Positions 6,138 to 31,809 of a DNA stretch of 38,241 nt are shown here, piece by piece; within the stretch, counting starts at the first letter, position 1, and each line of letters begins with the position of its first letter. Origin of the DNA: an uncultured Prevotellaceae bacterium (lineage in GTDB: Bacteria > Bacteroidota > Bacteroidia > Bacteroidales > Muribaculaceae); assembly GCA_900318065.1 (NCBI GenBank), contig ONIY01000015.1, forward strand, positions 1 to 38,241. Reading direction: 5' to 3'. Both the position numbers and the translations under genes were made by a program. The notes beneath the pieces are model-generated. The model was not told the DNA's origin. It did not search any database and saw only the letters and a program-made list of their open reading frames with translations.

Positions 6138-8078
6138 ATGAAAACCAAGCTAAACCCATCGTTTGTCAGGACTATGTCGTTGGCTATGCTGCTGGCAATG
6201 GTCCTGCCTGCCAGTGCCTACGACTTCATGACCAACGGCATAGCCTACAACATCAATGAAGATGGTGCAACAGTCACTGTCACTCAGAACGTGCAGTCTC
6301 ATCCCACCTATAGTGGTGACATTGTAATTCCTGAGGCTGTATATAATTCTAATAATGGCGTGCATTATTCTGTCACTGCAATCGACAGGCTGGCATTCTA
6401 TGCATGTAGAGAAATGACATCGGTGACTTTGCCCAGCACTCTTGTTCAAATAGGGCAATCGGCTTTTTCCTATTGTAGTGGACTCGGCGAAATAGCAATA
6501 CCGGCATCGGTCCAAACTATTGGGCAAGGAGCATTTCAGGGTTGTACAAGTCTAGTGTCGATAGAGCTGCCCAGCGGTTTGACCGAGCTGAACAATAATC
6601 TTTTCATGTCTTGCTCAAGTTTGAGTGTTGTGAGATTGCCGCAATATCTCAAGCACATTCACAGCTGTGTCTTTGATGGCTGCTCCAGTTTGACCGAGAT
6701 TGTTATTCCCGATCATGTCGAGAGCATTGGCAATGACGCTTTTAGAGATTGCATTAACTTGGAAAAAATCACTATGGGTGAATCGCTCGAGAATATAGAT
6801 CGTGAAGTTTTCACATCTTCTTGCTCCAGTCTCAGGCACATCAAGTGGAATACAGTTGATTTTCAGGGGTTTGACAATGAGGATTACAATCCTTTTCATA
6901 TCGTGAACTTTGTCAACAATTGCATCACAAATTTTGAGTTTGGCAGGAAAGTAAAAACGATTCCTGACTATATTTGCCGGCAATTCACTGGGTTGACATC
7001 AATCTCAATTCCAGGTTCAGTGACAAAGATTGGAAAAGAGGCTTTTGCCGTATGTACAGGCGTGACTACGATTAATATCCCTGGGGCGGTGACCGAGATT
7101 GGCGAACGTGCCTTCGAGGGGTGCTCACAATTGACTTCAATATTCTCAAGTATCAATGACCTGCATTCAACTACATGTGATGTGAGCGCATTCAACCTTG
7201 CGAGTACTTCGACTTGCACACTTTATGTCCCCAAGGGAACGTTGAGCGACTACCAGACTACCGCTCCCTGGAGCCAGTTCATGAATATCGTGGAACTGGA
7301 ACCTGGCGACACCAACCTTGACGGCACTGTCACGAGTGCCGACGTCACAGCCCTCTACGACCACTTGCTTGGCTGCCTCGACAATGCCGCGGCAGTTGCG
7401 TGCGACGTGAATGGTGACGGAATGGTGACGGCTGCCGATGTCACCGCACTTTACAACATCATTCTGGGTAACGAGTCCCAGGGTCATGAGTGGGTTGACC
7501 TGGGACTGCCCAGTGGCACGCTGTGGGCAAAGATGAACATTGGCGCCAGCAGCCCCGAGGAATGTGGCGACTACTTCGCTTGGGGAGAGACCGCTCCCAA
7601 GGGTGTCTATGACTGGACAACCTACTCGTGGAGCAATGGCAGCGCCTCTATGCTCACTAAGTATTGCGAGAACAGCAGCTTTGGCTTCAACGGTTTTGTC
7701 GATTACAAAACTGAACTTGACCCTGAAGACGATGCCGCTGCAGCCAACTGGGGTGCTGAGTGGCGCATGCCGTCGGTGGAGCAGGTTCAGGAGTTGGTGG
7801 AAAACTGCAGCGCCCAGTGGACAACGCTGAACGGCGTCTACGGCAGGCTGTTTACTGGCAGCAACGGCGCCACCTTGTTCTTGCCAGTGACGGGCGAACG
7901 CGATGGCAGCGAGCTCAAATACACTAATGATGGCTTGTACTGGTTGCGCACGCTCAAACCCACCTACTCATGGAGTGCCTACCACCTATACGTTGGCCCA
8001 AGGGCAGTTAACTGGTACGACGACTGTTTCTACCGCAGCACCGGACTAACCGTTCGTGCAGTGCGCGCCTCTCAATAA
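6138..8078 (+). CDS. BspA-like LRR protein with dockerin and Fib_succ_major-like domain
   Basis: This 646-residue secreted protein (signal peptide about 1-28, ending ASAYDFM) starts with about ten LRR_5/BspA-type repeats (about 60-375; motif AFxxCxxLTSIxIPxxVxxIG). A dockerin type I pair follows at about 390-440, with calcium-loop patterns GDTNLDGTVTSAD and DVNGDGMVTAAD. The C-terminal domain (about 450-646) begins WVDLGLPSGTLWAKMNIGA and ends TVRAVRAS, as in the Fibrobacter-succinogenes-major-paralogue-like domains common in Bacteroidales. BspA repeats are known for adhesion to host or bacterial surfaces; binding here is inference. It starts 29 bp after the DUF3857 gene, and a longer paralogue follows 75 bp downstream. 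No T9SS tail is visible. Confidence 0.85.
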   Translation: MKTKLNPSFVRTMSLAMLLAMVLPASAYDFMTNGIAYNINEDGATVTVTQNVQSHPTYSGDIVIPEAVYNSNNGVHYSVTAIDRLAFYACREMTSVTLPSTLVQIGQSAFSYCSGLGEIAIPASVQTIGQGAFQGCTSLVSIELPSGLTELNNNLFMSCSSLSVVRLPQYLKHIHSCVFDGCSSLTEIVIPDHVESIGNDAFRDCINLEKITMGESLENIDREVFTSSCSSLRHIKWNTVDFQGFDNEDYNPFHIVNFVNNCITNFEFGRKVKTIPDYICRQFTGLTSISIPGSVTKIGKEAFAVCTGVTTINIPGAVTEIGERAFEGCSQLTSIFSSINDLHSTTCDVSAFNLASTSTCTLYVPKGTLSDYQTTAPWSQFMNIVELEPGDTNLDGTVTSADVTALYDHLLGCLDNAAAVACDVNGDGMVTAADVTALYNIILGNESQGHEWVDLGLPSGTLWAKMNIGASSPEECGDYFAWGETAPKGVYDWTTYSWSNGSASMLTKYCENSSFGFNGFVDYKTELDPEDDAAAANWGAEWRMPSVEQVQELVENCSAQWTTLNGVYGRLFTGSNGATLFLPVTGERDGSELKYTNDGLYWLRTLKPTYSWSAYHLYVGPRAVNWYDDCFYRSTGLTVRAVRASQ

Positions 8079-8153
8079 CTCAAAACTTCAAGCTAAACGA
8101 AATTTGTCAAACGGAGGCACTCAAAACCGCCACCACCTAAAAACGATATAATT

Positions 8154-11100
8154 ATGAAGACTACACTCAACACAATCACTCGGCATCTCTTGCTACTTGC
8201 GCTGTTATTAGCAGCAACTTTGCCAGCCAGAGCTTACGATTTTATGGAGGATGGATTGTGCTATAAAGTGAATAGTGGTAACACTACTGTGACTGTGACT
8301 TATCAAATTACAAACACAGGAACAAACGGTAATACTTACGGTGCAGGCTATGAGCATCTGACTGGTGACTTAGTAATTCCCGAGAATGTCATTCATCTTG
8401 GCAAAACCTATCAAGTGACATCAATAGGTGATCATGCATTCTATAATTGCACTGGTTTGACTTCGGTAACCATACCAAATTCGGTTACCACCATTGGCGG
8501 TGCCGACCAAATATCCTCGGACGGTGCTTCATTCTATAACTGCACTGGATTGACATCGGTTACAATTCCCAATTCAGTCACCTTAATTGGCAAAAATTCT
8601 TTCAATAGTTGTAGTGGACTCACTTCAGTTGTCATAGGTGATTCGGTGACTTTGATTGGCGAAAGAGCCTTTGAGAAATGCACTAACCTAACATCGGTAA
8701 CAATCCCTAACTCAGTGACAACGATTGGTGGTAGTGCCTTCTATAATTGCACTGGTTTGACTTCGGTGAACTACGGCAACTCAATAACGTCGATTAATGG
8801 CGGCGCTTTTTATAATTGTACCAGCCTGACTTCTCTTGCTCTTCCCAATTCATTGAAATATATAGGGGATGGCGCATTCGAACTGTGCACTGGTTTGACC
8901 GAGGTTACAATTCCTGACTCGGTGACACAGATTGGCGGCTTAGCTTTCGCTTATTGCGAAGGCTTGACCTCAGTTGATTTAGACAACTCGGTAAAAGATC
9001 TTGGCTGGGGTGCTTTTAAGGGATGTACGGGGTTAACATCGGTCACCATCCCCAATTCGGTGATTTCAATTGGCAATGAAGCATTCTCTGGCTGCAGTGG
9101 CTTGAAATCGGCAACTATTGGTGATAATGTATATTATATTAATGAAAAAGCATTCAGCCAATGTACTTCACTTGAAGAAATAGTGATTGGGAAATCTGTT
9201 GTAGAGATGGGATTAGAAGTCTTCTCAGGTTGCACAGCATTGAAAACTGTGAAATGGAACGCCAAAGAATGTGAACATTTCATTTTTAGCGAAAGTCCTT
9301 TTTACTGCATGAATAATATCGAATCTTTCATTTTTGGCAACACAGTAGAAATTATACCATCATTTCTTTGCTATGGATGTACTGGTTTGACATCGGTAAA
9401 TATTGGCGACTTGGTGACAACGATTGGGCAATCGGCATTTGGGTACTGCACTAGCTTACCACTGGTTGGTTTTGGTAAGTCGGTGAGAATTATTGAATAT
9501 GAGGCCTTTCGTGGCTGTAGTAGTTTGACCACAGTTGATCTTCCTAATTCGGTAACCAACATTGGTGGTAGTGCGTTTTATGACTGCGAAAGTTTGACTT
9601 CTGTTACAATCTCAAACTCTGTGGTTAGGGTTGGCAGTAGTTCATTCTATAATTGTGGCAGCCTGAACACAGTCACTTTTGGCGAAAACGTAAGTCTCAT
9701 TGGCCCTGAGGCTTTTAAAGGATGCACCTCTTTAGATAATATTGTTACATTAATGCGGCAACCAATATACATATCAAGTAGTGTGTTTGAAGGTGTGACG
9801 ACTGCAACTTGCGACCTTCATGTGAGACAAGGTTCGAAAACAGATTATGAGAATCAGGATGTGTGGAAAGATTTCTTGATAACCGAAGATGCTGAGGACT
9901 ATGCCGACATTAGTCCTGTGCCAGGCGATGTAAATTGCGATGGGGCTAAAAATGCTGCCGACATCACTGCGCTCTATGACTATATGCTCAATGGAGACCT
10001 GACTTATGTTGCCACATGCGATGTGAATGGTGACGGTCATATCAATAGTGCTGATGTGACAGCGATTTATGACATTCTGTTGGGAAACATGAGTCCAGAA
10101 TTGTATACTGGCCTTTACATGGGTATAACAGGCTTCAACCAATCGTTGATAAAGAATGGAATAAGCTTCGTAGATTTCGATAAGAAACAAGAGATGAGAG
10201 GCTTTATTGATAACTTGAGCACTAACAATGGCTCAATATTGTACTATGCAGTTGAAGAGGCTTTAAATGATATGGCTGAAGCCCAAGTTCCCGCCGATTT
10301 GTCGAATGTTTTTCTCATCACCTTTACCGATGGCCTCGACCAGGGCTCATTGGCTATGACAGACGCTTATAACAATGAGTCGCAATACTTGGCGGCATTG
10401 AACCACCGTATCAAAACTGTGCCGATACACGGAAAACCAGTAAAAGCCTATTCTATAGGTTTGCGCGGTAGCGATGTCACAAACTATGCAATGTTCCAAA
10501 ATAACCTGCAGTTGCTCGCAAGCGACAATGACAATGTAACAGAGGTAGCCGACATTGCTCAGGTCAAGACCAAATTACAGGAGATTGCCAATGAGATAGA
10601 CAAGATGTGCGTCGATGCGAAGCAGAGCGTGACAGTGACAATGACCGGCGTGGAAGATGGCAGGCTCATCCGCTTTGTGCTTGACGGAGGAACTGCCGAA
10701 ACTGCTAATCTTTACATTGAAGCAAGATTCTCCAAGCAAGACCACTGCCTCTACGATGTGTCATATCACGGGCTGACCTGTGAGAGTGGAAGTGTCATTG
10801 AGGCCACCAGTGTCAACAACCTAATTGATTCCTATATATTTGAGTTCAATGGATTGTGCACTCCATTTGGGGCTGGAATCAAGTTGGAAGATTTAGATGA
10901 ATATGTCAATATGATTATTTTCGATGTCTGGAACATTCCACATTATTTTGAGAAATTTTCCTATGAGATCTCCATTACTCGCAACAATACAAGCGCACTT
11001 GTGATGCTAGTGCTTGACTGCTCGTCTTCACTCGACAGTGATTTCTTAACGCTAAAGACCGCGGCTAAGGCATTTGTTAACTGCTCGCCAGCAAGCAAAC

Positions 11101-27208: not shown

Positions 27209-28645
27209 TTAGAACAATTCGTCTAGTGTTATTTGGGCAAGAAACCTTTCACTGTAGGCATTGCGAATGGGTGGGTAGGTGGTGATGAGGGTAGGGATTA
27301 TACCTCCTTTAGCCCCTGTGCTATGCTTGAAATCTTCATATCGTCTTTGGCATTTGTCAAATTCATCCTTATCAAGACGATAGGGAGCTGCACTGTATTT
27401 GATCTCGCAGATGTTTGTCATTTTGTCGGCGCGTTCTATAACAAGGTCGATTTGTGATTTTTGTTTTCTGTCATCACCTTGATAGCGCCAGGAATAATAT
27501 TCTGTCTTGATTGTATCGATGTGCAAAGCTCTCTTGATTTCAGCAATATGCTTGTGGCATAGTCGTTCAAAGGACAATCCAAGCCAGGAACTGAGTTGTG
27601 GGGTGTTTTGACTCTTTGACCAAAACTGCTCTTCGCTGGTGCCATCTTTGACAAATGTCAGGTAGAAGATGCTATATAAATCGGTGAGTTGATAGAGTCC
27701 TCCACGAGTTGAAATTTTCTTGTTTTTCATGCGGTAGAACCTAATTATGTCGCAGTCAATGAGGTTCTGCAGCATTTGCGACAATCGTCCATTAGCATTT
27801 TTCCCAATGGCTTTGGCAATATCGTCACGTGATTTGCCTTGGCGAGTCTTGAAGAGGAATTCCACGATTGAGATATAAGGGTCGGGGATAGCAAATAATG
27901 TCTTATATAATCGGCCAAATTCTCTACGCATCTCTCCGCTGTTGCTGAAGAACAGTCGGTCAATATTCTGAGCCAAGCTTTCTTGCTTGTTGAGCAGGCT
28001 CAGATAATAAGGTATACCTCCCATAATCATATAGACTTGAGCCACCATCAGACGATCCCAATCAAATCCGTTGGCTTTAAGGTAACTCTCGGTTTCTCTC
28101 AGTGTGAATTCTTTTAAGTGTATTTCATGTGTGATGCGGTCGTGAAGTCCACCATGGCTATTAATTATATTTTTCATCATCCATGACGTGGCCGAACCGC
28201 ACACCACAAGCATTAGGTTAGGTTGTAGCGAAGCCCAACTATTCCAGAAGTGTCCCAGCGCATTGATAAAGTCGGAGAGATGAGTGTCGAAGCATGGTAG
28301 TTCATCAATGAATATCACACTGCGCTTTCCGTCAACCATTTTTTTCAACAGTAGATGTCGTAGTTCTCTGAAGGCAGCATACCAGTCGCTGGGTGCTTGA
28401 CTCAATGGCGAGCCATAGATGTCCATAGCGTCGATGAAAGAATTAATTTGCTCTCTCTTGTCACCGCCAATGATGCCTGTCATTGAAAAAACCAATTGAT
28501 TGCTGAACACATTGTTAATCAAGAAAGTTTTCCCTACGCGCCGGCGGCCATAGACAGCAATAAATTCGGCTTGATTTGAACTGGCATAACTGTTGAGAAG
28601 TGTGATTTCTTTTTCACGGCCTATGATGTTATCAACTGAGGACAT
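27209..28645 (-). CDS. AAA-type ATPase with C-terminal DUF234/nuclease-like domain
   Basis: This 478-residue protein belongs to the ATPase family first described from archaea (ATPase_2/DUF234 layout). The N-terminal P-loop domain has Walker A GRRRVGKT (33-40) and Walker B VIFIDE (110-115), followed by a sensor-like VVCGSATSWM (about 150). Helical winged-helix-like segments lie at about 255-330 (FLFKTRQGKSRDDIAKAIG). The C-terminal DUF234 part has QIDLVIER and NICEIKYSA, the D...ExK spacing of PD-(D/E)xK nucleases. Function is unclear for the family. The gene is AT-rich compared with its neighbours and occurs alone, with a palindromic 51-bp tandem repeat upstream; this suggests lateral acquisition. 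Confidence 0.85.
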   Translation of the reverse strand: MSSVDNIIGREKEITLLNSYASSNQAEFIAVYGRRRVGKTFLINNVFSNQLVFSMTGIIGGDKREQINSFIDAMDIYGSPLSQAPSDWYAAFRELRHLLLKKMVDGKRSVIFIDELPCFDTHLSDFINALGHFWNSWASLQPNLMLVVCGSATSWMMKNIINSHGGLHDRITHEIHLKEFTLRETESYLKANGFDWDRLMVAQVYMIMGGIPYYLSLLNKQESLAQNIDRLFFSNSGEMRREFGRLYKTLFAIPDPYISIVEFLFKTRQGKSRDDIAKAIGKNANGRLSQMLQNLIDCDIIRFYRMKNKKISTRGGLYQLTDLYSIFYLTFVKDGTSEEQFWSKSQNTPQLSSWLGLSFERLCHKHIAEIKRALHIDTIKTEYYSWRYQGDDRKQKSQIDLVIERADKMTNICEIKYSAAPYRLDKDEFDKCQRRYEDFKHSTGAKGGIIPTLITTYPPIRNAYSERFLAQITLDELF

Positions 28646-28705: not shown

Positions 28706-28825
28706 ATAAAGTGCTAAATCGGCGTTTTTTTCTTCGCTATAGCACTTCATTACGAGATAAAGTGCTAAATCGGCGATTTTTTTCTCGCTATAGCACTTTA
28801 TTGCGAGATAAAGTGCTATAGCGGC
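28706..28825. repeat. 51-bp tandem repeat with inverted arms, 2.4 copies
   Basis: Units begin ATAAAGTGCT at 28706, 28757 and 28808. The first two are 51 bp each, the third is partial (about 18 bp and joins GCGGC). Each full unit contains AAAGTGCTA at its left and TAGCACTTT or TAGCACTTC at its right, so each can form a hairpin with a T-run in the loop. The repeat begins where the -33 region of the ATPase promoter is expected, so an operator role is possible. Confidence 0.8.
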
Positions 28826-28841: not shown

Positions 28842-28937
28842 CCAGTCCTAACGGACCAATGGTGCAAGTCGAATGCAGAATATCAAGCTTGCTTGATTTA
28901 TGCTGAGACGCAGCCCATTGATGCTGAAAGACTTTTA
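28842..28937. repeat. 96-bp inverted repeat, left copy
   Basis: These 96 bases are the exact reverse complement of 31714-31809. The copy has an internal hairpin ATCAAGC-TT-GCTTGAT and outer CCAATGG/CCCATTG arms, so it may fold as RNA or cruciform DNA. Weaker similarity extends past one edge (ATTGGTG on both copies). Confidence 0.9.
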
Positions 28938-28987
28938 TCGGACACCAATGAAGAGCTGCCTATAATCGCCTAATGACCTGTTCATGT

Positions 28988-31594
28988 TTATGTTCCCAGC
29001 AGGATGTTGTATACCGCAGTGACATCGCCGGCGGTGATGTTGCCGTCGCCGTCCACGTCGGCATTCACCAGGCTGGTGGTGTCGTTGTTGAGCAGGTAGT
29101 CGTAGAGTGCGGTGACATCGGCAGCAGTGACGCTTCCGTCGCCGTTCACGTCGCCAGGGATTGACACTGGGGCAGTACCACTGTTGTAGACGAATGAGAT
29201 GACGTCGCCATAGGGGGTGTTGGCAGCACCATTCTCGGTGTTGTAGCTGGCGCGGGCACGGGCATAGTAGGTGTTGCCGTCTTCCATGAGCTTGTTGTTC
29301 ACCTTGATTTGCCCAGCCGGCAGGGTGGTGTGGTAGGCGAAGTCGCGCACGGTTTCCACAAATCGGGTGCGGCCCCATGTGGTGGCGCTGGTGGATATCT
29401 CGATGGTGTAGCTCACGGCAGCCTCCTGGCGGTCGACGGTGACATACTGGTCGCTGTAGAGCGTGCCGCCTGCTGTTGGGATGGCAAAGGTGGGAGGCGT
29501 GGCATCGAGATAGGCAGTTTTGAACGTCACTGTTCCCGTCTCGCGGTAGTTGCCATTGTCAATCATGTGCACTCGCATGTAATAGTAGTTGCCTGGCACG
29601 AGGGTATACTTGGGAATGGCGAGCTCGCCAGTGGTGGAAGTGCCGGTGAAGACGATGTTGTTGAAAGTGTCGTCGGTGGCAATCTCAAGGGTGGCCTCGG
29701 CGCTGGAGCCGCCAGTGAGCCACTGCGCGGTGAACGATGGGTGAATGTTGTCCTGCCCATTCTCGGGATAGATGATGGTGAACACCTGTGGCGAGCACCA
29801 GCGTGTCTCGCTCACGCCGTCGCTGTAGCCCTCGGCACAGGCTCGCACGCGCCAGTAGTAGTTGCGAGGAAGGAATTCACCAAAGGCGCTCGACGAGATG
29901 CTGGTGGCGGTGGTGGTCATGCGCTTCACGTCGCTGAAGTCCTCGCTGGTGGCGAGCTCCACCATGTAGCCCTGCGCGCTGGGCACTGGCTCCCAACTCA
30001 TGGTGAATGGGTCGGGCACGAGGGCACCGTTGTCGGGCGAGAGGAGCACGGGTGCGGTGAGCTGCTGGTCGGCGGGAGGGATAAGAAATGCCGGATGGAA
30101 CTCGTTGTCGGTGCGGTCGACGGGGCACACGGCATAGTAGTAGCCAAAACGTGCCTCGTCGGGGATGGTGTAGTTGGTTGTGTAGCTCACGTCGAGCAGC
30201 ATCTCGGCCTCCTTGGCAAACTGCGATGGTTCAACACTGTTGGGCACAGCATAAATAGAGTATTTGTAGTTGTCAAATCCATTCCACGAGAGCACATGGT
30301 TGGCGCTGGTGAGATTAGTCACCACGCCAGGGTCATTGCCTGGTTTCCAGGGCATTGCCGGTGGCAGAGCAGGACGAGTGAACACCTTGCGCTTGAGATA
30401 GGTGGCAAGTTCCTCGTGGTTGCCGGTGCGGTACAGGTACTTGCAGCTGTAGAATATGGCACCAGGAGCGTCGTCGAAGCTGTAGTCGCGGTTGAGTTGA
30501 ACCTCGTTGGCATATTCCTCGTGTTGTAACTCGGTGCTTTGACTTGTCATTCCCGAGATAGAGTTGGAGACAAAGAGTTGTCGGTCGAAATAGTCGCACA
30601 CCTGGTTCCACCAGGGCACAATCTTGCTGTAGTCGGCAGTAGCGCCAATCTTCCAATATACTTGTGGCGAGATATAGTCGATAGTCTTCTCATTGAGCCA
30701 TGCCAGCGGGTCGCTGAAGATGCCGTTGTACTGCCAGTCGCTGCCGGCTGGGCAGTGGGGCAGTCCATAGCTGGGAGCCGAGGTGCCTGCCACGCCTGCT
30801 GGCGAGATGCCAAAGCGAATGTCGGGCCTGGTGGCCTGGATCATGTTGTACACCTCTCGCACCATGCGATTCACGTTGGCGCGACGCCAGTCGCCCAGGG
30901 TCATGTCAACGTTGGCGTCGAGCCATTCCTGGTAGTCGCCGGCACTGCTGTCGCTTGAGATGCCGTCGGGGTAGAAGTAGTCGTCGTAGAGGATACCGTC
31001 GACATCATATTTCGTGATGATTTCCTGGCACACGTTCACAATGCGCTGCACCGTCTCGTCGCGCGCCGGGTCAAGAACCACATAGTTGCCGGCGCTCAGC
31101 AGCAGTCCCGACTGGCGCAGGGCCATGTCCATGGGGTTGCCGGCAGCGTCCCACTGGTCGATGCCGTTGCTGCTGTAGCGGTAGGGGTTGATCCAGGCGT
31201 GGCACTCCATGCCTCGCTGGTGACATGCCTCGACGGCATAGGCGAGCGGGTCCCAGGTGGGCACCTGGCCGCGAGTGCCGGTGAGGTAGCTCGACCAGGG
31301 CTCGTAACTCGACTCATACATAGCGTCGCACATCGAGCGCACCTGGAAGTTGATGGCGTTGAAATTGTTGTTCTTGAGCGAGTCGAGCATGCGGTCGAGT
31401 TGCGCCTTCTGCTTCGCCTCGGCATTAGTGCCATAGGCCTGTGTCTCGGGCCAGTCGAGGCACCACACCGTTGCCACCCATGCCGAGCGGAACTCCCGTT
31501 TGGGCACAGTGTAGTTGTGTGACGCGGCTCGTGCTGCCAGTCCCAGTGTCAACAAAATGGCAATTAGAACAAGATAGTGTGTTAATCGTGTCAT
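28988..31594 (-). CDS. Secreted GHL10-family glycosidase-like protein with C-terminal dockerin
   Basis: This 868-residue protein has a signal peptide (about 1-23, ending ARAAS). The GHL10 (DUF187) domain covers about 30-400, with REFRSAWVATVWCLDWP at its start, AINFQVRSMCDAMYES, the YDVDGILYDDYFYPDG segment (about 195-210) and IRFGISPAGV. E. coli DigH of this family cuts peptide-free peptidoglycan glycan strands; the substrate here may differ. Fibronectin-III-like modules follow (about 430-800), then a dockerin type I pair (about 810-865, DVNGDGSVTAADVTALYDYL and DVDGDGNITAGD). The gene is alone, and both sides carry the same 96-bp repeat in inverted orientation. A -7 box (31634-31641, TAAATTTG on the minus strand) lies 40 bp upstream. 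Confidence 0.88.
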   Translation of the reverse strand: MTRLTHYLVLIAILLTLGLAARAASHNYTVPKREFRSAWVATVWCLDWPETQAYGTNAEAKQKAQLDRMLDSLKNNNFNAINFQVRSMCDAMYESSYEPWSSYLTGTRGQVPTWDPLAYAVEACHQRGMECHAWINPYRYSSNGIDQWDAAGNPMDMALRQSGLLLSAGNYVVLDPARDETVQRIVNVCQEIITKYDVDGILYDDYFYPDGISSDSSAGDYQEWLDANVDMTLGDWRRANVNRMVREVYNMIQATRPDIRFGISPAGVAGTSAPSYGLPHCPAGSDWQYNGIFSDPLAWLNEKTIDYISPQVYWKIGATADYSKIVPWWNQVCDYFDRQLFVSNSISGMTSQSTELQHEEYANEVQLNRDYSFDDAPGAIFYSCKYLYRTGNHEELATYLKRKVFTRPALPPAMPWKPGNDPGVVTNLTSANHVLSWNGFDNYKYSIYAVPNSVEPSQFAKEAEMLLDVSYTTNYTIPDEARFGYYYAVCPVDRTDNEFHPAFLIPPADQQLTAPVLLSPDNGALVPDPFTMSWEPVPSAQGYMVELATSEDFSDVKRMTTTATSISSSAFGEFLPRNYYWRVRACAEGYSDGVSETRWCSPQVFTIIYPENGQDNIHPSFTAQWLTGGSSAEATLEIATDDTFNNIVFTGTSTTGELAIPKYTLVPGNYYYMRVHMIDNGNYRETGTVTFKTAYLDATPPTFAIPTAGGTLYSDQYVTVDRQEAAVSYTIEISTSATTWGRTRFVETVRDFAYHTTLPAGQIKVNNKLMEDGNTYYARARASYNTENGAANTPYGDVISFVYNSGTAPVSIPGDVNGDGSVTAADVTALYDYLLNNDTTSLVNADVDGDGNITAGDVTAVYNILLGT

Positions 31595-31633
31595 AGTGCT
31601 AGGTATAAAGTGATGATTAATTTCTTTTCGCTA

Positions 31634-31641
31634 CAAATTTA
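31634..31641 (-). promoter_or_regulatory. -7 box of the GHL10 gene promoter
   Basis: On the minus strand TAAATTTG is a full match to TAnnTTTG, 40 bp before the ATG at 31594. It lies inside the segment bounded by the 96-bp inverted repeats, so gene and promoter would move together if that segment inverted. Confidence 0.5.
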
Positions 31642-31713
31642 TAAACTTTTTTCAAAAAATGCCATATTATAGAGGCGGATTTTTATTTATTATTGGTATT
31701 ATTGGTGCCGCGC

Positions 31714-31809
31714 TAAAAGTCTTTCAGCATCAATGGGCTGCGTCTCAGCATAAATCAAGCAAGCTTGATATTCTGCATTCGACTTGCACCATTGGTCCGT
31801 TAGGACTGG
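31714..31809. repeat. 96-bp inverted repeat, right copy
   Basis: Exact reverse complement of 28842-28937 over 96 bases (TAAAAGTCTTTCAGC at the left to CCGTTAGGACTGG at the right). It lies between the divergent promoters of the GHL10 and Nudix genes. Confidence 0.9.

Follow-up and report, generated by a model that had tools for sequence, protein, structure and literature searches.

The window analysed here (the whole 38,241-nucleotide stretch of contig ONIY01000015.1, from an uncultured Prevotellaceae bacterium) contains one gene enclosed by two inverted copies of the same sequence (Table 1). A repeat search of the window returned these arms as inverted stretches of 99 nt with 99% complementarity (one mismatch), at a spacing of 2770 nt. 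A previous sequence-only reading had described perfect inverted repeats of 96 bp, and an exact core of that length does sit inside the 99-nt arms; an identity of this extent is far beyond chance. The partial palindrome noted earlier in each copy (ATCAAGC-TT-GCTTGAT) was also present. The segment between the arms held a single complete ORF of 868 aa with GHL10 (E 2.6e-51) and Dockerin_1 (E 7.8e-12) domains, and upstream of it, within the same segment, a -7-like box (TAAATTTG, read by eye), in agreement with the earlier description of one complete surface-hydrolase gene enclosed together with its -7 box. One copy lies past the stop codon of the resident gene and the other ahead of its promoter. 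The genes flanking the segment encode an ATPase_2/DUF234 protein and a NUDIX protein, and no recombinase or transposase family match was found in the eight proteins of the window that were scanned (ORFs lying between 21681 and 38010), as had been stated for the interior and surroundings of the segment. In the gap that separates the ATPase gene from the left copy, positions 28706-28825 consist of approximately 2.4 tandem copies of a 51-bp unit with an internal palindrome (ATAAAGTGCTAAATCGGCG...CGCTATAGCACTTTAT), for which no further match was found in the genome.

Table 1. Features of the inverted arms and of the gene between them (window coordinates)
Feature	Position	Strand	Remarks
Left copy of dispersed hairpin element, subfamily A	28842..28940	+	R1 match 28853-28927, 71.4 bits
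5' side hairpin GTCC-TAAC-GGAC	28842..28856	+	Sequence common to the two window copies only
Main hairpin, left copy	28857..28920	+	Outer stem CAATGG/CCATTG, internal loops, inner stem ATCAAG/CTTGAT
GHL10-dockerin surface hydrolase gene between copies	28988..31594	-	Resident gene, outside the element
Right copy of dispersed hairpin element, inverted	31711..31809	-	R1 match 31724-31798, 71.4 bits
Main hairpin, right copy	31731..31794	-	Fold of inverted copy

The two arms were found to belong to a repeat that is dispersed in the source genome (G000). The 99-mer gave 25 matches there, some of them partial, and R1, a covariance model built from 54 sequences, gave 38. Five copies, including the window pair, form subfamily A and match one another at 98-100% over 82 nt or more; the other copies in this subfamily carry a different short sequence in place of the GTCC-TAAC-GGAC side hairpin. 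Most of the remaining copies constitute subfamily B (75-78% identity), located inside a second dispersed palindrome (CTCCCCCTCTAAGATAGAGGGGGNNGGGGGGAGTATGA), of which 18 distinct stretches without and 15 with the core element were counted in the examined regions of the genome. This second palindrome, in the form CTCCCCCTCTAAGATAGAGGGGG..GGGGGAGTATGA, was seen with and without the core in L258, L260, L265, L277 and other loci of this genome. Isolated left-end fragments of subfamily A (approximately 21 nt) were observed near full copies at L085:7117-7137 and L091:6821-6842, one of them inverted. Of the three readings offered previously, that of two copies of a dispersed structured intergenic element was therefore borne out by the 25 and 38 matches, together with the covariation described below, and the proposed copy count, extended to relatives, placed the 99-mer at many unrelated sites, with matches in 28 of 61 genomes of the genus. 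For 38 copies placed at random, the expected chance of at least one inverted pair as close as this one is 0.49. The window pair shares 12 outer bases that no other 99-mer match in the genome covers, from which we infer that one copy was probably copied locally from the other. The arms had been taken to imply recent duplication, gene conversion or active recombination; the match is indeed beyond chance, while the arms are alike because the element is dispersed, with probable local copying in addition.

Two further readings had been proposed, an invertible segment and a gene carried between two copies of a mobile repeat, and both were assessed at the corresponding site in relatives. Orthologues of the GHL10-dockerin gene were found in genomes G011, G001, G010 and G030 (84-91% protein identity), the one in G030 being split over two contigs. 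Those in G001, G010 and G011 (87-91%) stand beside conserved neighbours, and the gene has the same orientation as in the window relative to the right-hand neighbours in G011, the left-hand neighbours in G001 and the NUDIX gene in G010. No R1 match was found beside the orthologue in G001 or G010, the G001 contig ending 389 bp past the start of the gene; the upstream region in G011 holds an element of another subfamily in the opposite orientation. The suggested comparison of sites showed the gene without these copies in these three relatives; G030 and G027 offered no syntenic anchor within the regions compared. At the syntenic G001 site (L080) the ATPase_2/DUF234 gene (27209-28645) and the left repeat region are missing, and the flanking genes are approximately 105 bp apart. 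A composite mobile cassette whose ends brought in the GHL10 gene would account for a gene between two near-identical copies, but the presence of orthologues beside conserved neighbours, without these copies, does not support it, and we regard this reading as barely credible. An invertible segment, with phase variation of the GHL10 gene through recombination of one arm with the other, is very improbable in our judgement, although rare recombination events are conceivable: inverted arms of 96-99 bp are long enough for RecA-type recombination, but the orientation equals that in all three relatives by syntenic anchors, the segment includes the promoter, no recombinase is adjacent among the eight proteins scanned, and the repeat has 38 dispersed copies, of which the arms are two. 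Most likely, the arms mark where a repeat landed and are not a gene switch.

The repeat is a family of long covarying hairpins of Bacteroidales, approximately 65-100 nt in length and non-coding. In a first alignment of 138 R1 hits (137 distinct, from 100 loci, with loci L200-L244 kept outside), all 19 base pairs showed two-sided (compensatory) changes, with 565 two-sided cells relative to 143 in shuffled alignments and 96.7% paired relative to 31-44% when the alignment was slid; none of 500 shuffles reached any of the five measures. The second sample (61 hits from the 45 loci L200-L244) gave two-sided changes at 15 of 19 pairs and 250 two-sided cells relative to 68 in shuffles; four of the measures were reached by no shuffle, the number of further pair types by 9 of 500. 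As the alignments were fitted to R1, and loop bases were set in advance by the pattern search, the conservation of the loops in these rows is partly a matter of construction; the changes in the stem are not. On the strand carrying GTGCAA, G.U pairs outnumbered A.C pairs 54 to 31 and 6 to 2 in two alignments and equalled them (7 to 7) in a third, a mild excess obtained after rows with more than three non-standard pairs had been dropped, and from rows that are not independent.

The exact conserved pattern was found in at least 119 stretches of named genomes. Among the matches listed (80 titles), 79 were from Bacteroidota (Prevotella, Bacteroides, Parabacteroides, Muribaculaceae, Paludibacteraceae and others) and one was from a proteobacterium. 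With strict filters, R1 matched 8 of 296 genomes of the class, and the exact pattern 12 of 392 genomes of the order (G000 included in both cases), which reflects either a patchy distribution of the element or the strictness of the searches. By crude ORF calls, 47 of the 80 pattern matches were intergenic, between divergent (17), convergent (4) or same-direction (26) genes, and 33 were inside ORFs, many of which are probably spurious. Comparison with Rfam (the window at gathering threshold, and eight loci at E values up to 1) gave no match on the element; this comparison covered curated models. A search of the open-access literature for the conserved strings and for Bacteroidales repeats gave no description of this hairpin family.

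The ends of the element could be read from two copies that interrupt genes. In L038 the interrupted gene reads AACTTCTTCAA, a 68-bp insert and then (G/C)CGAGG; 12 of 20 loci compared run through the site, nine with an identical 2-nt AA overlap, and the remaining comparison loci comprised two interrupted forms (L289, L301), one with matches into the element (L290) and five in which the stretch was partial or absent. In L103, comparison with homologues showed that a copy interrupts an IS200-like transposase gene (L103:335-843) near its 3' end, with, in the orientation of the element, TTCAA as left flank and TCTAA as right end. Both insertions are placed 3' of TTCAA, have TCTAA as right end and break the reading frame, and neither has a duplication beyond the shared AA, which may be encoded by the element, so that a 2-nt AA target duplication would look the same. 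The left flanks of the hits had a corresponding composition, with A at -2, A at -1 and C or G at -3 in 96%, 89% and 83% of the 138 hits, and in 93%, 92% and 90% of the 61 hits of the second sample, respectively. Tandem arrays in genome G263 consist of units of approximately 66-67 nt that end in TATGCAA. The subfamily found in the window has GA where others carry CAA at the left end, and adjoins no -7 box. Another dispersed repeat of G263, approximately 180 nt long, was noted at L281 (around 8000-8190; query positions 1504-1690), with dozens of matches in that genome.

Promoters of Bacteroidales have a -7 and -33 consensus, and the element was often found next to a -7-like box. The -7 box TANNTTTG occurred in reverse complement (CAAANNTA) within 45 nt to the right of 49 of 138 copies and to the left of 4 of 138, relative to 1.8% of random 45-nt windows; in the second sample the numbers were 24 and 3 of 61, respectively. 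Both samples came mainly from one pattern search, some loci are near-duplicates, and 13 of the 54 R1 training sequences lie in loci of the second sample. Of the boxed copies, 19 of 49 and 10 of 24 also had a reverse-complement -33 TTG at 19-20 nt, leaving 30 of 49 and 14 of 24 -7-like boxes with no -33 at this canonical distance. An ORF of 100 aa or more, with its start no further than 400 nt away, was found on the promoter side of 31 of 36 boxed copies relative to 40 of 70 unboxed ones (p 0.002), and on the opposite side of 26 of 36 and 48 of 70, which is no difference; this test used 106 of the 138 hits (32 were dropped for short flanks), and its rows are not independent. With an opposite-strand -7 box just to its right, the element lies in the 5' leader, as exemplified by G263, in which an element array stands between a TATCTTTGC box and the leucyl-tRNA synthetase gene (leuS). 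In the leuS homologues of G239 and G213 the box is approximately 30-50 nt before the ATG (read by eye), and R1 gave no match in five loci homologous to G263 leuS; these homologues are only 71-74% identical and are therefore not close empty sites. Comparison of close relatives gave no empty site at a -7 box. Taken from sequence, these positions suggest that the element may insert into -7 boxes, which would be rebuilt in the process, and so come to lie in the 5' leader.

The same data bear on a different reading, in which the element is a cis-acting RNA that is retained for regulation as a structured 5' leader or 3' RNA and has spread by duplication. The strong covariation in both samples, the location of about a third of the copies by -7-like boxes on the leader side, and the leuS leader array of G263 all argue for it. 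It is nevertheless unlikely, as two copies lie in coding sequence and break the frame, presence or absence differs between relatives, and the promoters transcribe the reverse complement, whereas the mild G.U excess is on the other strand.

A mobilising enzyme was searched for among Y1 transposases. Y1_Tnp genes are present in G000 and relatives, and a tblastn search of the element loci with Y1 proteins gave no Y1 gene bracketed by the element. Short IS200-like Y1 genes at element loci were seen in L214 (approximately 4 kb away) and otherwise in loci that had been chosen for their Y1 genes. Over 53 Y1 loci, R1 gave matches in L103 only, one strong (the copy that interrupts the gene) and two weak ones with E values of 0.018 and 0.16, and no full-length relative with TnpA and the same ends was seen among the element loci. 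PF01797 had no match in the element-rich genomes G263 and G081, and a RAYT-like query was found in one of nine genomes, these two being without it. The RAYT-like genes of L327 (G586) and L118 (G028) had no R1 match beside them; according to our reading of their motifs they would belong to subclass 2.6, and atypical flanking structures are reported for Bacteroidetes RAYTs of this subclass in PMC6006769. With regard to a bias towards the lagging-strand template, the G-rich strand carried the element in 12 of 25 locus-strands of G000 and in 6 of 10 elsewhere (loci of at least 10 kb), the two strand proxies disagreeing.

Compared with known systems, the element invites comparison with REP/REPIN sequences and their TnpA-REP (RAYT) enzymes, with which it shares short imperfect dispersed hairpins, clusters in some genomes, a specific foot sequence and a lack of coding capacity; as a short imperfect palindrome in many dispersed copies it has one of the defining features of a REP. 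The canonical REP foot is GTRG, as given in PMC6006769, whereas the element is without a GTAG/GTGG foot and is flanked by (C/G)AA or GA. Its hairpin is also larger, with conserved internal loops, it is often beside -7 boxes, and no RAYT gene was found beside or flanked by its copies (53 Y1 loci). The ends of IS200/IS605 elements and their non-autonomous derivatives resemble it in the hairpin, the fixed right-end motif and the absence of a long target duplication, and oriented insertion 3' of a short fixed sequence was found here in the two gene insertions and the flank statistics; unlike them, it has no transposase gene inside, and G263 and G081 are without PF01797. Rickettsia palindromic elements also lie inside genes; the two gene insertions examined here differ in disrupting the frame. 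The terminal CGTC tag of CGTC repeats was not seen at the ends of this element, which is otherwise like both in being a palindromic dispersed repeat (PMC3733652). Covarying hairpins are also known as candidate structured RNAs of Bacteroidetes (PMC2864571, PMC8040213), the latter paper, with 3161 candidates, reporting palindromic ones in this phylum; the element differs in that no Rfam family matches it, a distinction that covers Rfam models.

Altogether, the arms are probably copies of a short, structured, non-coding DNA element of Bacteroidales, formerly or currently mobile, and they probably do not control the gene by inversion. Transposition of single strands by Y1 enzymes leaves a one-sided fixed target, a fixed right end and a folded strand, as described in part in PMC6006769. 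By analogy, a putative Y1 (HUH) type enzyme supplied in trans would move the element in the form of a folded single strand, making the left cut after (C/G)AA and the right cut at the element's own NAA end, as for REP and IS200/IS605 elements. Insertion would hit the CAA of a -7 box, perhaps when the box is melted, and the CAA of the element itself would rebuild it. Target, ends and fold fit a Y1 mechanism; with no cognate enzyme found, and without PF01797 matches in two element-rich genomes, the element is REP-like in its working and not a REP by membership. More speculatively, and with rather less chance of being right, a single-stranded DNA hairpin found throughout Bacteroidales may prefer melted -7 boxes at CAA, rebuild them with its own CAA and become a 5' leader without silencing the gene, the mover being an enzyme other than a RAYT.

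Many gut and rumen Bacteroidales carry a structured repeat that had no match to a curated RNA family in this analysis. If single-strand mobility and promoter rebuilding on landing are true, they would provide a natural route for adding RNA leaders to genes and would explain some inverted repeats that can be mistaken for switches, and the selection of promoter DNA as a single-strand target would be directly testable.
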